Assembly (NCBI GenBank): GCA_021782065.1
Contig: JAJXVQ010000060.1
Span: forward strand, 1-7,134
Source of the DNA: Pseudomonadota bacterium
GTDB taxonomy: Bacteria; Pseudomonadota; Gammaproteobacteria; UBA1113
Direction of reading: 5' to 3'
DNA length: 7,134 bases
Shown here: one piece after another, positions 1,698-6,948 of the stretch
Numbering within the stretch: the first letter of the stretch is position 1
Layout of the letters: every line of letters starts with the position of its first letter
Made by a program: the position numbers and the translations under genes
The notes under the pieces: generated by a model
Database searches by the model: none
Told to the model about the DNA's origin: nothing
Seen by the model: only the letters and a program-made list of their open reading frames with translations

Positions 1698-2531
1698 TTA
1701 TAGTATCCTTGCAAAAAAAGATATTAGCGCCATGACTACCCCATAGATCATATCAGTGCCGATTAAAAACAACAGAGCGGCAAAAATGCGGCGTATCAGT
1801 TTTACTTCTAAACGCATCGCCAACCGTACCCCTACAGGAACCAAAAGAATGCACGGCAATACCAAACCCAATAGGGCTGGCCAGTAGACATAACCAATGC
1901 TGTCTTTAGGCATCGCTAAATTGCTGGGTGTAGATAACATCAATAGGATTACGCCCGTTAAGGCTACCGGGAAAGTGCAGACGGATGCCGTAGCAATGGC
2001 ATGGCGTAAAGGCACATTACAGCGATTAAAATAAGGTACCAATAAGCTACCGCCCGACACACCCAGCAAAATGCATAAAACACCTATAATGGTGCTCACT
2101 ACATTTAAATGCATCCCTTCGGGCATGATTCTGTTTTTAACTTGCTTCTTAGGAAATGCCATGGACCAAGAAACGAATAACACAAAAAAGCCGAAGAATA
2201 ATTGCAATGCTTTGCTGGGAATATGTTTAGCAATAAAGATTCCCAATAAAGCCCCCATTATTAACCCTATTAACATTTTACGTACCAACGGCCACTGTAC
2301 ATTGCCATAACGGTGGTGATTGAAACCAGACACCAATGACGAACACACGACTAAGCCTAAAGAAGTTGCCACCGCAGCATGCATGAGTATCTGATGAGAA
2401 ACCCCTACTTCTGGCAATTGCCACACTAAAAAAGGCAAGACTATAATGGCGCCACCCAAACCTAATAATCCGGCTATTACCCCTACTAAAGCGCCTACTA
2501 CGGTGTACAGTGCAATAAAATGCAGAATCAT
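1698..2531 (-). CDS. TauE/SafE (TSUP, DUF81) family membrane permease
   Basis: This is a predicted inner-membrane transporter of the sulfite exporter TauE/SafE family, whose characterised members move sulfite, sulfoacetate or other small organic anions. The substrate here cannot be told from sequence. The 277-residue protein has about eight hydrophobic segments (roughly 5-38, 50-69, 86-102, 108-126, 142-168, 184-200, 214-236, 247-273). It shows the two-fold internal repeat of the family: AGLLGLGGAIIVLPFL (20-35) at the start of the first half and LLGVSGGSLLVPYF (155-168) at the start of the second. Its ATG overlaps the stop of the upstream VIT-type gene as ATGA (2528-2531), and its own TAA touches the lgt ATG, so it sits in a translationally coupled set. 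A TauE-like permease between ptsP and lgt also occurs in pseudomonads, so its position looks ancestral. No defects are visible. Confidence 0.9.
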   Translation of the reverse strand: MILHFIALYTVVGALVGVIAGLLGLGGAIIVLPFLVWQLPEVGVSHQILMHAAVATSLGLVVCSSLVSGFNHHRYGNVQWPLVRKMLIGLIMGALLGIFIAKHIPSKALQLFFGFFVLFVSWSMAFPKKQVKNRIMPEGMHLNVVSTIIGVLCILLGVSGGSLLVPYFNRCNVPLRHAIATASVCTFPVALTGVILLMLSTPSNLAMPKDSIGYVYWPALLGLVLPCILLVPVGVRLAMRLEVKLIRRIFAALLFLIGTDMIYGVVMALISFFARIL

Positions 2532-3262
2532 GTGGCCCCCAATCCTCGTAACAATACGCCTACACCATACGCCAGTACAGCTGCAACGGAGCCTATGGCC
2601 AAGGTTGCCAGCGCGGATTTATACATGGGCTCAATAGAGACCAAACTTTTCATAGCGCCTACAATTAGAAAAACAATGCCTACCGATAACATAGACCAGA
2701 GAAAGGGATTAGATACGGCCAATAAAAATGGCACTAAGGGGCACAAGCCACACAGCATAAAGGATAAAAATGTAGCCCAAGCGGATTTCCAAGGCGATCG
2801 CAATACAGGACTTAGTCCATATTCCTCTTGCATCATCGTTTCTACCCAACGATCTTCATCCGCCGTGATCAATTCTACAGTTTTTTCTAAGGCTATGCCA
2901 GAAAATCCTTTATGCCTATAAATTTGCCGCACTTCTTCTGCTTCACCCTGCGGAATATGCCGGACTTGCTGACGTTCATAATGTTCGTAAAAATCATATT
3001 CATCTTTTTCTGAACGCGTGCCCAAATAGTTTGCGGCTGCCATGGAAAAGCCATCGGCAATCACGTTGGCAAAACCTAAGATAAGAATAACGCTGGTTGC
3101 CAAATGTGCCCCTTTTACCCCAGAGATTATAGCAAAAGTAGTTACAGCGCCATCGATGCCGCCGTAGATCCAGTCGCGTAAATAATTACGTTTAGGTTTA
3201 ATGGATAAACGCTCTTGTATATCGTCCGCCTCATGGCTATGTTCTATATTTTTCTTTATCAT
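2528..3262 (-). CDS. VIT1/CCC1 family Fe2+/Mn2+ transporter
   Basis: The product is a predicted membrane transporter of the VIT/CCC1 family, which exports iron(II) or manganese(II), in eukaryotes into vacuoles. With the start chosen here it has 244 residues. The N-terminal part has the family's first transmembrane motif IYGGIDGAVTTFAIISG (32-48, conserved Asp37) and LGFANVIADGFSMAAANYLG (62-81, Met74). A charged cytoplasmic helical region follows (83-150) with many Glu and the WVETMMQEE motif (139-147), typical of the metal-binding domain. Three further hydrophobic segments lie at about 160-183, 188-206 and 216-238. The frame extends to an ATG at 3307, but that part overlaps the dead ptsP tail. 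The ATG at 3262 has a GAGGAA ribosome binding site 3 bases upstream and fits the family better. It overlaps the downstream permease gene by 4 bases (ATGA). The N-terminal segment has several His and Glu residues that could also bind metal (inference). Confidence 0.9.
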   Translation of the reverse strand: MIKKNIEHSHEADDIQERLSIKPKRNYLRDWIYGGIDGAVTTFAIISGVKGAHLATSVILILGFANVIADGFSMAAANYLGTRSEKDEYDFYEHYERQQVRHIPQGEAEEVRQIYRHKGFSGIALEKTVELITADEDRWVETMMQEEYGLSPVLRSPWKSAWATFLSFMLCGLCPLVPFLLAVSNPFLWSMLSVGIVFLIVGAMKSLVSIEPMYKSALATLAIGSVAAVLAYGVGVLLRGLGAT

Positions 3263-3265
3263 CGT

Positions 3266-3271
3266 TTCCTC
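3266..3271 (-). promoter_or_regulatory. Ribosome binding site deciding the VIT-type transporter start
   Basis: On the minus strand GAGGAA lies 3 bases before ATG 3262 (GAGG core to ATG, 5 bases). This favours that start over the in-frame ATG at 3307, which lies within the coding sequence of the ptsP relic and would add 15 Arg-rich residues without family support. Confidence 0.7.
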
Positions 3272-3278
3272 GCCCGAA

Positions 3279-3577
3279 TTAACCCGCCTCCTCCAACAAC
3301 TTTTCAACTTCTCTGCGGATTAGGGCGGTATTGTTCAACACTAATACACGCTGCACCCATGCTTTAGCACATTCATTACGGTATAGTACGTATAATCCAC
3401 TTAATACGCAACAGAATACCCGCATTCATACTCATCAGAGCATACTGCTAGCGCTTCAGATCGATCCAATAAATTCGACACAGATGCGCTTGCATAGCCT
3501 CACGCACGCAACGATGGGCAATGCACTAGGTCAATCGCCAGCCAAATCGATTTCTTGCGCAATATGCCACAATACGG
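3279..3577 (-). pseudogene. ptsP: Relic of ptsP (PTS-Ntr enzyme I), internally deleted and frameshifted
   Basis: Intact PtsP is a cytoplasmic phosphoenolpyruvate-protein phosphotransferase of about 750 residues: a GAF domain, then the enzyme I domains, feeding phosphate to NPr in the nitrogen-PTS. Here about 300 bases remain, in shifted frames. Reading from the rppH side: LWHIAQEIDLAGD (3572-3534) resembles the family's first helix. After a frame change, VREAMQAHLCRIYWID (3507-3460) resembles the next GAF helix and strand (family type: V..AM....CS.YL.D). Then MSMNAGILLRIKWIIRT (3435-3385) matches the C-terminal enzyme I motif around LSMN...RIKW.IR. After another frame change, AKAWVQRVLVLNNTALIRRE (3368-3309) and VEKLLEEAG then TAA (3308-3279) match the C-terminal helices. 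About 2 kb is missing, with the junction near 3459-3439. Position supports the call: ptsP follows rppH in E. coli and Pseudomonas. The match is from memory of the family, not an alignment. Confidence 0.8.
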
Positions 3578-4072
3578 CTAACATGGGGGTTCATCCAACA
3601 CAAATGGTGCAAAGTTTTTAAGGGCCTTAATATAAACCTTCTGTTTAAAGGCAATAACATGTTTAATGGGATACCAATATGATACCCAACGCCAATTGTC
3701 GAATTCTGCTTTATGGCCGGGTTGTTCTAGGCTGATATGTGTGTCGTCTGCCAATAACTTTAACAAAAACCATTTTTGCTTCTGCCCTATGCATAAGGGC
3801 CTAGAATGATAACGAATTAAGTCTTGTGGCAAACGATAATACAACCAGCGATCGGTGACGCTGATGATTTTTACATCGGTCTCTTTCAGTCCTACTTCCT
3901 CGTTCAATTCGCGAAACAAAGTTTGTTCCAGCGTCTCTCCTGGATGGACACCGCCCTGCGGAAATTGCCATGCCTCCTGTCCACACCTTTTCGCCCATAA
4001 TACCTTTTTATCCGCATTGACGATGATAATACCCACATTCGAGCGAAAACCGCGCCGGTCGATGATAGCCAT
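3578..4072 (-). CDS. rppH: RNA pyrophosphohydrolase RppH (Nudix family)
   Basis: RppH removes pyrophosphate from the 5' end of triphosphorylated transcripts, producing the monophosphate end that stimulates RNase E cleavage. The 164-residue product has the complete Nudix box, G40-x5-E46-x7-R54-E55-L56-x-E58-E59-x-G61-L62, with the metal-binding glutamates present. It also has the RppH-specific surroundings: [10 protein letters not shown] (8-17), WQFPQGG (35-41), [13 protein letters not shown] (92-104) and [13 protein letters not shown] (123-135), close to the E. coli protein. The basic C-terminal tail of E. coli RppH (176 residues) is missing here; the protein ends shortly after the conserved FAPFV region, which is within family variation. 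The ATG at 4072 aligns with the family start, but only a weak ribosome binding site is seen. Its stop lies directly before the ptsP relic, keeping the ancestral rppH-ptsP order. It is first in the minus-strand block and divergent from the acyl-CoA dehydrogenase gene. Confidence 0.96.
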
Positions 4073-4319
4073 GTCGTTATTTCATATTATTTGATTGAAT
4101 AGAACTATCGTACTGCAAAGCCAGGGTCTAATACAAGGCATGGTTAAAAAATGGGCTAATTTGAGACGGAAAGACTTAGTTGTATAGAAAAACGGTTCTT
4201 TATGCGGCAAACAACCCGCGCGTGGAATTGCTACAACACAGAAATACATACCCGTGTCGCATTTTACCTCCAATCCCGCTACAATAAGCTATTGCTATAG
4301 CGTATAAGGTTTTTAAATC
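4073..4319. promoter_or_regulatory. Divergent intergenic region between rppH and the acyl-CoA dehydrogenase gene
   Basis: These 247 bases separate two divergent transcription units, so promoters for both are expected here (inference). On the plus strand the best -10 candidate is TACAAT (4280-4285), 34 bases before the start codon, but no good -35 hexamer lies 16-18 bases upstream. A weak ribosome binding site, AAGG (4306-4309), precedes ATG 4320. On the minus strand the DNA next to rppH is AT-rich with no convincing consensus pair. Short open frames here show no coding character, and no tRNA or strong hairpin was found. Confidence 0.4.
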
Positions 4320-5465
4320 ATGGATTTTCGCTTAACTCCAGAACAAATTGCCATGCAAGATATGGTCTTTGATTTCATGCAAGAACAAATGATGCCACAG
4401 GCAGCACTCTGGGATGAAAAAAACATCTTTCCCAAAGAAGTGTTACGTCATGCGGCACAATTGGGTTTGGCCGGTATTTGTATTGCCAGTGATGTAGGCG
4501 GCAGCGAATTAACGCGTTTAGATTACGTTTTGATTTTCCAGATCTTGGCCAAGGCCTGCCCCTCCACCGCTGCTTATTTGTCTATACACAACATGGTAAC
4601 TGGTTTGATTGACCGTTTTGGATCAGAAGCACAACGCCAGCGTTTTGTTCCGAAATTAACATCCCTAGAACATTTCTCAAGTTATTGTTTAACAGAACCT
4701 TCTACGGGATCCGATGCTGCCAATCTTAAAACCACCGCTACACGCAACGGGGATCAGTATGTTTTAAATGGTAGTAAAGCTTTTATATCGGGCGCGGGCG
4801 TTAGTGAGATCTACCTTTGCATGGTGCGTACTGGGGAAGAAGGTGCTAAAGGGATTAGTTGCATCGTCGTAGAAAAAGATACGCCTGGTTTTTCAATGGG
4901 TAAAAAGGAAGTGAAATTAGGTTGGCACAGTCAACCCACAGCCATGTTGTTCTTTGAAAACTGTCGTGTACCTATAGAAAACCGCATTGGCGAAGAAGGC
5001 CAGGGTTTTAACATTGCTTTATCTGCTTTAAACAATGGTCGTTTAGGCATAGCCGCTTGTTCTCTAGGCGGTGCTACACAGTGCTTCGATCTAACGCGCC
5101 GCTACACGCATGAACGAGAACAATTTAAACAACGCCTAAATGAGTTCCAAAGCATTCAATTTAGGTTGGCTGATATGTATACTCAACTGGAGGCGGCACG
5201 CTTAGCGGTTTATCGCGCGGCCTGTTCTTTGGATGCAAAAGACAGTAAGGCGCCTGTCTATGTGGCCATGGCAAAGCAACTGGCCACGGATACCAGTTTT
5301 ACTGTGTGTAATGAGGCGCTACAGTTACACGGCGGTTATGGGTATTTACGCGAGTATCCTATAGAACGGTATCTGCGCGATCTGCGCGTGCATCAAATTT
5401 TAGAGGGCACGAATGAGATCATGCGGGTTATTATTGCCAAAGATTTATTACGTGAGATGGAGTAA
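4320..5465 (+). CDS. Acyl-CoA dehydrogenase, isobutyryl-CoA dehydrogenase (ACAD8)-like
   Basis: This is an FAD-dependent, soluble acyl-CoA dehydrogenase that introduces the alpha,beta double bond into an acyl-CoA and passes electrons to electron transfer flavoprotein. The 381-residue length is typical. The N-terminal helical domain (about 1-115) leads to the flavin/substrate loop YCLTEPSTGSDAA (122-134) and the beta-domain with LNGSKAFISGAG (149-160). The C-terminal helical domain has RYTHEREQF (261-269), LQLHGGYGYLREYPIERYLRD (334-354) and HQILEGTNEIMR (358-369). Glu362 is in the position of the catalytic base in this branch. Several stretches, especially KGISCIVVEKDTPGFSMGKK (177-196), GWHSQPT and ACSLGGA, resemble mammalian ACAD8, so isobutyryl-CoA (valine breakdown) or another short branched acyl-CoA is the likeliest substrate (inference). 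It is the first gene of a two-gene operon; the enoyl-CoA hydratase starts 3 bases after its stop. No defects are seen. Confidence 0.92.
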   Translation: MDFRLTPEQIAMQDMVFDFMQEQMMPQAALWDEKNIFPKEVLRHAAQLGLAGICIASDVGGSELTRLDYVLIFQILAKACPSTAAYLSIHNMVTGLIDRFGSEAQRQRFVPKLTSLEHFSSYCLTEPSTGSDAANLKTTATRNGDQYVLNGSKAFISGAGVSEIYLCMVRTGEEGAKGISCIVVEKDTPGFSMGKKEVKLGWHSQPTAMLFFENCRVPIENRIGEEGQGFNIALSALNNGRLGIAACSLGGATQCFDLTRRYTHEREQFKQRLNEFQSIQFRLADMYTQLEAARLAVYRAACSLDAKDSKAPVYVAMAKQLATDTSFTVCNEALQLHGGYGYLREYPIERYLRDLRVHQILEGTNEIMRVIIAKDLLREME

Positions 5466-5468
5466 ACA

Positions 5469-6251
5469 ATGTCATATCAAAATGTATTGACCGATTTAGG
5501 TCAAGACGGGATCTTAAGCATTACCTTAAACCGCGCCGATAAATTAAACGCATTAAGCGCCGAGTTATTGGAAGAATTGTTACACGTTATCGGCCAGGCG
5601 CAAAAAGACAGCCAAACCTATAGCCTATTGATAACCGGTGCGGGAAAAGCGTTTTGTGCCGGTGCAGACATACGTCGCTTAGCCGAGTTAGATGCTAACA
5701 GTGCGTATGACTTTGCGCGTCATGGACAACATGTTTTTGACCGCTTAGAAAATTTAGATAAACCCTCATTAGCTGCCGTCAATGGTTTTTGTTTGGGTGG
5801 TGGTTGTGAATTGGCCATGTCAGCCACATTGCGTTTTGCGAGCCTTGAAGCACGTTTTGCGCAACCCGAAGTTAAATTAGGGGTTATTCCTTGTTTTGGC
5901 GGCACACAACGTTTACCGCGTTTAGTGGGCAAAGGTCGCGCGCTAGATATGTGTTTATCGGGCCGCACTGTAGCCGCTGAGGAAGCACATGCTTGGGGTT
6001 TGGTGAATGCCTTACACTCTGCAGATACTTTATTATTGGCCGCTAAAGAGTATTTACGACAATTACGACACTTAGCGCCTATAGCATTACGACGTACCAT
6101 GGAAGCTATTCATCAAGGTTACGATTTACCCCTAACCGATGCGCTGCAATTAGAAGCCCTATTGTTCGCACAAAGTGCAGCGACTAAAGACAAAGCAGAG
6201 GGAGTGTCCGCATTTTTAGAAAAGCGCGCCGCAAAATTTGTGGGAAAATAG
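5469..6251 (+). CDS. Enoyl-CoA hydratase/isomerase (crotonase) family protein
   Basis: A crotonase-fold hydratase that would add water across the 2,3 double bond made by the preceding dehydrogenase. The 260-residue product has the usual length. It has an N-terminal SITLNRADKLNALS (17-30), the oxyanion-hole segment KAFCAGADI (60-68), the second oxyanion-hole and first catalytic-Glu region NGFCLGGGCELAM (105-117, Glu114), and the second catalytic-Glu segment AQPEVKLGVIPCFGGTQRLP (131-150, Glu134). Having both glutamates, at the rat enoyl-CoA hydratase positions 144 and 164, supports true hydratase activity rather than isomerase only. LSGRTVAAEEAHAWGLVN (163-180) and a C-terminal helical region complete the fold. 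A GGAG ribosome binding site (5459-5462), inside the end of the upstream gene, lies 6 bases before the ATG, so the pair is co-transcribed. The acyl substrate cannot be fixed from sequence; methacrylyl-CoA would fit the partner enzyme. Transcription ends at the hairpin just downstream. Confidence 0.93.
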   Translation: MSYQNVLTDLGQDGILSITLNRADKLNALSAELLEELLHVIGQAQKDSQTYSLLITGAGKAFCAGADIRRLAELDANSAYDFARHGQHVFDRLENLDKPSLAAVNGFCLGGGCELAMSATLRFASLEARFAQPEVKLGVIPCFGGTQRLPRLVGKGRALDMCLSGRTVAAEEAHAWGLVNALHSADTLLLAAKEYLRQLRHLAPIALRRTMEAIHQGYDLPLTDALQLEALLFAQSAATKDKAEGVSAFLEKRAAKFVGK

Positions 6252-6388: not shown

Positions 6389-6787
6389 CTAATGGCGTGA
6401 ACCTAAATCCCTATCTGATTTTTCTCCTTTGATAAGATGAGTTAGTTCGTCACACAAAACGACTTTTTTATTTTTAATCTTAAATAATGCATTTACCTGA
6501 GCTTCAATGACACCACCGTCCTTTTTAATCCCGCTAACAAGATGGACGGTAGCAACTGTATCTCCCTCTACAATAATATACTTAAAAGTTACTTTAGCCG
6601 ATTTCATAACATTTTTCTGCGTTTTCATATGCGCAATAAAACCATTATAGTCCAATGTTTTTCCGTCTACATATTGAATGTAATCTTGAGAAAAATAGTG
6701 GGCATATGTTTCTTCTGTAGCATCCATATTCTCAACCGTATTTTTAAAAATTTCTTTTACAAATTTTTTTGTCTCATCGGGTGCCAT
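6389..6787 (-). CDS. NTF2-like / SnoaL-like domain protein, function unknown
   Basis: A 132-residue soluble protein with no signal peptide or membrane segment. The pattern of N-terminal helices (about 1-34), a YFSQDYIQYVDGKTLDYNGF segment (31-50), then strands KVTFKYIIVEGDTVATVHLV (65-84), EAQVNALFKIKNKKVV (95-110) and CDELTHLI (112-119) is that of the alpha+beta NTF2-like (SnoaL-like) cone fold. The acidic-basic tail GEKSDRDLGSR (121-131) occurs, as I recall, in bacterial proteins annotated as NTF2 family. The fold is used by many small enzymes and ligand binders, so no reaction can be assigned. A GGAG ribosome binding site (6797-6800) lies 9 bases before the ATG. GC across 6421-6780 is about 32% by hand count, against about 45% in the neighbouring metabolic genes, suggesting later acquisition. 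It faces the acyl-CoA operon tail to tail; no clear terminator follows it. Confidence 0.82.
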   Translation of the reverse strand: MAPDETKKFVKEIFKNTVENMDATEETYAHYFSQDYIQYVDGKTLDYNGFIAHMKTQKNVMKSAKVTFKYIIVEGDTVATVHLVSGIKKDGGVIEAQVNALFKIKNKKVVLCDELTHLIKGEKSDRDLGSRH

Positions 6788-6903: not shown

Positions 6904-6948
6904 ACTTGAACCATCATGGCTGACGGAATCAGCCATGATGGTTCAAGT
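6904..6948. repeat. Perfect 20-bp inverted repeat with 5-base loop
   Basis: ACTTGAACCATCATGGCTGA (6904-6923) is followed, after the loop CGGAA, by its exact reverse complement (6929-6948). The stem has no mismatch and ends sharply at both sides. It is preceded by a run of seven C (6893-6899) and has no T-tract on either strand, so it does not look like a standard intrinsic terminator. It lies between the NTF2-like gene and the stop codon of the right-edge ORF, 15 bases past that stop. Possible roles are a dispersed palindromic (REP- or MITE-like) element, a structured 3' end protecting the transcript from the right, or a protein-binding site. The sequence alone does not decide. Confidence 0.9.

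Follow-up and report, generated by a model that had tools for sequence, protein, structure and literature searches.

A stretch of 7,134 bp of genomic DNA (the window) was found to carry a pseudogene of ptsP at positions 3259-3584 on the minus strand. The product of ptsP starts a regulatory phosphate relay, and only the two ends of the gene are left. Taken as a whole, the explanation that we favor, and that we hold with high confidence, is that this relic gives no working enzyme, that the gene was lost after the lineage of the window split from its closest relative found (G008), and that the loss was tolerated because partners of the relay had gone earlier.

The ptsP remnant flanked by rppH and the VIT gene

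The remnant is embedded in an otherwise well-preserved minus-strand neighborhood. Upstream lies an intact rppH of the Nudix family (3578-4072; PF00293, E 1.7e-21), 90% identical to that of G008 over residues 1-164 of 164, and downstream an intact VIT1-family gene (2528-3262; PF01988, E 1.4e-60), 92% identical to its G008 counterpart. Intact TauE/SafE-family (1698-2531) and lgt (912-1697) genes, both syntenic in relatives, follow on the same strand, as does a dprA-like gene (3-800) cut by the window end. On the other side of rppH, an intact acyl-CoA dehydrogenase gene (4320-5465, plus strand), syntenic in G008, G009 and G007, occupies 4320-6251 together with an enoyl-CoA hydratase gene on the same strand, and a SnoaL-like gene lies at 6389-6787 on the minus strand.

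Beyond the start of the SnoaL-like gene, we observed an inverted repeat of two perfectly matching 20-bp arms around a 5-nt loop (6904-6948), whose RNA fold has an energy of -39.8 kcal/mol (z -7.05); when 19 bases of one arm were compared with 170 loci, no exact match was found. Since no T run follows it on either strand, as judged by eye, this repeat is not a plain terminator. A tRNA scan of the window gave no match.

When the 745-residue PtsP of locus L001 was searched against the whole window with tblastn, the four best matches had E values from 1e-5 to 6e-12, and the next one stood at E 1.9. They cover residues 1-35 (3584-3483), 24-56 (3522-3424), 685-703 (3435-3379) and 705-735 (3374-3282), all on the minus strand. 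A prior sequence-only reading had described four PtsP-like fragments on this strand in the correct order, exactly as found here, and had proposed a tblastn comparison of the stretch with PtsP proteins. In our comparison with 120 listed of 7,689 PtsP homologues, every one of the 120 matched the relic at E<=1 and 70 did so at E<1e-3; both PtsP ends were matched by 102 and the C-terminal end only by 18, always on the minus strand. The same 120 homologues gave 65 matches in the window outside the relic, the best of them at E 0.057. A chance resemblance to PtsP was also considered and is ruled out by shuffling, the top score of ten PtsP queries being 48.5 bits on the real stretch versus a maximum of 26.2 over 500 shuffles.

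At the DNA level, the window and G008 are identical at 549 of 658 positions (83%) from rppH into the 5' remnant and at 367 of 444 (83%) from the 3' remnant into the VIT gene. From 3584, where it overlaps the final codons of rppH, the relic extends in the alignment to the VIT start (3262) with a four-base overlap, the same as that of the intact ptsP in G008. The limits of the span originally proposed, 3279-3577, have to be moved outward at both ends.

The same site was then compared across relatives by scanning contigs with RppH, using the best 80 loci of 588 relatives. The closest RppH among the matches listed (80% identity) belongs to the metagenome-assembled gammaproteobacterium Bin_72_2 (locus L001, genome G001), where the genes after rppH are, in this order, an intact 745-codon ptsP, VIT, TauE and lgt. 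An intact ptsP between rppH and VIT was seen in all five genomes with this rppH-ptsP-VIT-TauE-lgt arrangement (G001, G007, G008, G009 and G010). Its length is 745 codons in G008 as well, and the L001 and G008 proteins pass the NCBIfam equivalog NF008283 with 774 and 771 bits, respectively (cut-off 583). G008 has four neighboring proteins 88 to 95% identical to those of the window, and also has the acyl-CoA dehydrogenase, hydratase and SnoaL-like genes. The window thus shares with these five closest relatives the gene order, including the VIT gene after ptsP, but retains just the two ends of ptsP itself.

These intact copies at the same site support the reading of the stretch as a decayed ptsP. 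They also agree with the premise that ptsP is the usual neighbor of rppH in gammaproteobacteria, as does a 2026 review, which places ptsP typically downstream of rppH (PMC13104625). Among the 120 listed of 7,689 homologues, there was no near-identical intact ptsP from the window's own species, and when viral contigs were scanned for the locus, five stretches matched the pattern, none of them a relative.

More widely, a PtsP-like match was present in all ten genomes compared from the order to which L001 belongs, nearly full length in nine. In G002 (L109), the match is limited to residues 160-736 and lies in a frame of 590 aa that looks as though it had no N-terminal GAF region, and no rppH match was found in the surrounding 11 kb. 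In G010 (L102, 4866 to 4942), about 75 bases separate ptsP from VIT, two genes that overlap or touch in G008, G001, G009 and G007.

Lesions of the remnant and rival readings

Two pieces of the gene remain. The 5' remnant (3433-3584) corresponds to codons 1-53, the start of the GAF region, and is identical to the G008 ptsP at 119 of 152 aligned bases, whereas the 3' remnant (3259-3432) corresponds to codons 686-745 and is identical at 142 of 170 aligned bases (this alignment covered 3262-3432, the final bases being taken from the longer DNA alignment). Between them, codon 53 is joined to codon 686 at 3433|3432, a position ambiguous by two bases, the TG common to both sides. The junction falls on a codon boundary, since 152 nt remain of 159 after a 7-nt deletion. 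With either G008 or G001 as reference, the internal deletion removes 632 of 745 codons (1,896 bp) in frame, and its being in frame is a point against the reading of the stretch as decay. An internal deletion of about 2 kb had been anticipated near 3459-3439; its size holds, and its place has to be corrected to the junction given above.

Apart from this deletion, the 5' remnant carries the 7-nt deletion and two in-frame stop codons, and the 3' remnant a 1-nt insertion and a 10-nt deletion near its end. The same small indels appear against G001, with the 10-nt gap split as 7 and 3, and a few extra small gaps appear against the more distant G010 and G009. Alignment to intact copies thus confirms the frameshifts that had been suspected, in the form of three small indels. 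Two motifs at about residues 347 and 663, which we take to be the phosphohistidine and PEP-site regions that are catalytic in enzyme I, were present in all four intact copies checked, and both lie inside the deleted part. Consistently, no open frame with GAF, phosphohistidine and PEP-binding domains was found at the site, and no long frame remains.

The remaining codons still look constrained, as they might if an intact gene had been broken only by a false contig join or by local errors. We consider such an assembly or sequencing artefact very unlikely, because three indels and two stops fall within about 325 bp, on both sides of the junction, while the seven neighboring genes (5,178 bp in total, dprA being cut by the window end and uncounted) show not a single frame break, and because G008 is collinear with the window on either side of the relic. 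Local sequencing error taken by itself is ruled out by the intact frames of these neighbors. Similarly, it is highly improbable that the remnant is still active, either through a short peptide or as a leader for the VIT gene. A 48-codon stop-free frame does exist at 3279-3425, and the VIT start is still preceded by a purine-rich stretch, as judged by eye; however, this frame differs from that of ptsP at its start and coincides with it only over its last part, and the rest is interrupted by stop codons and indels. Moreover, an Rfam scan of the window at gathering scores gave no match, and within 3200-4320 no promoter-like site was found on the minus strand (two were found, both on the plus strand, versus 3.2 expected by chance).

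A further alternative accepts the relic as real and is compatible with it, but supposes that a working ptsP or another enzyme I resides elsewhere in the genome, so that no function was lost. This we regard as unlikely, given that the relic occupies the ancestral site and that each of the ten relatives has a single PtsP-like match, the far weaker second match (29 to 36% identity) found in eight of them being a PEP synthase in the one scanned (G008). The bacterium of the window has probably lost the enzyme that starts the phosphate relay, and a loss of the phosphorelay input in this organism is plausible.

Branch and age of the loss

A tree was built from four concatenated neighboring proteins (954 columns) and covered the window plus eight genomes, all of the ten but G003 and G005; VIT was missing in the three outgroups, RppH in G002 and, in G010, part of TauE. 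It places the window as sister to G008 with a support of 100, whereas support is weak at two deeper nodes (37 and 85). Since G008 is the sister and ptsP is intact in G008, G001, G009, G010 and G007, the loss falls on the window's own branch.

Relative to G008, the relic shows 19 substitutions at codon positions 1 and 2 and 31 at position 3. The corresponding ends of the intact ptsP of G008 gave 27/53, 25/54 and 24/53 against G001, G010 and G009, respectively, and the relic does not differ from these comparisons (Fisher p 0.71, 0.57 and 0.45), although it offers only 50 substitutions. Compared with six pooled flanking genes of the window and G008 (167/563), the relic is mildly shifted (p 0.024). 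As codon positions show no clear relaxation, the decay looks recent, bearing in mind that 50 substitutions make for a weak test. Most of the remaining letters look like those of a gene under selection until recently, a matter that 50 substitutions are insufficient to settle. Relaxed selection therefore gives no proof, and it is the deletion, the indels and the stops that make the case for a pseudogene.

The relay in relatives and a proposed order of losses

The usual acceptor of the PTS-Ntr relay is PtsN. We searched the ten genomes with profiles for ptsN (PF00359), EIIA-Man (PF03610), HprK (PF07475), sigma-54 (PF04552) and HPr (PF00381), the ptsN and Man types being the EIIA families covered. 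Genes of the ptsN, EIIA-Man and HprK types were each found in five of the ten genomes, and these were the identical five (G002-G006, 5/5), versus none of the five relatives that share the locus of the window (G001, G007, G008, G009 and G010, 0/5). Likewise, rpoN exceeded the cut-off in G003-G006, that is, in four of the five other genomes and in none of the window's group, where one weak sub-cut-off match in G001 falls in a frame resembling a transposase, as judged by eye. Single absences are weak, because the completeness of the ten genomes is not given, but assembly gaps would not readily produce an identical five-versus-five split in three families. On the other hand, the three families do not amount to independent losses, because their genes adjoin in the outgroup: G006 has RpoN-, Hpf-, PtsN-, HprK-, EIIA-Man- and HPr-type genes in one row (Hpf assigned by eye).

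HPr has a different distribution, being present in eight of the ten genomes and not found in G008 and G010. In G009, G001 and G007, it adjoins rapZ and an hpf-like gene (hpf was scanned in G009 and recognized by eye in the other two). G008 and G010 miss both HPr and RapZ. The HPr-RapZ site of G009 is flanked by pyrC, pmbA and an LptC-like gene; in G008, there was no match to pyrC or the LptC-like gene and pmbA was weak (25%), and in G010 the LptC-like gene was not found and the pmbA match stopped at residue 275 of 440, having begun at residue 1. Because these flanking genes are missing or weak too, the absence of HPr and RapZ from G008 and G010 may be an assembly gap; G007, which has HPr and RapZ, is also without a pyrC match, so the flanks are no sure sign of one. 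We had considered, from these two genomes, that HPr was lost before PtsP, and dropped this idea since both absences may be assembly gaps.

Because five relatives have the locus without detectable ptsN, hprK, EIIA-Man or rpoN, we conclude that ptsP probably died after its relay had lost these partners. In the mechanism that we propose, the common ancestor of the window's group would have lost the relay acceptors first, and HPr and PtsP would have persisted for a time, the remainder of the relay then being the HPr protein encoded beside rapZ. The lineage of the window would subsequently have lost PtsP, after its split from G008, and this could have been tolerated because PtsN, EIIA-Man and HprK were already gone. 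The remnant would yield no working enzyme, and expression of rppH and of the VIT gene probably continues.

A fuller version of this scheme may be put forward tentatively, and we would give it somewhat less than an even chance. The relay would have been dismantled from its output end, with PtsN, EIIA-Man, HprK and sigma-54 going first in the common ancestor, while HPr and PtsP survived, with HPr next to RapZ in three relatives at least. The window would then capture PtsP shortly after its loss, and HPr, if present, would be an unphosphorylated partner in the rapZ operon.

Losses in this relay are known from other gammaproteobacteria. According to the review (PMC13104625), L. pneumophila encodes EI and HPr without recognizable EII or PtsN domains, some Legionella species are without PtsN, PtsO or both, and Acinetobacter and Moraxella are without PtsN, Acinetobacter keeping PtsP and PtsO. 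The window resembles these cases in that relay parts are missing there too. In the cases just cited, however, it is PtsN or PtsO that is missing, whereas in the window it is the first enzyme that has been lost, with the broken gene still in place. A narrow look at the literature returned no comparable ptsP relic.

The relic itself is ordinary gene decay and alters no general idea; it captures gene loss in a clean snapshot, in a stretch that is blank to an ORF caller. What gives it interest is the order of losses seen across relatives, which suggests in what sequence a regulatory relay broke down. Those relatives that have PtsP, and HPr beside RapZ, without detectable PtsN or EIIA-Man-type proteins offer a natural setting in which to study the role of HPr phosphorylation.
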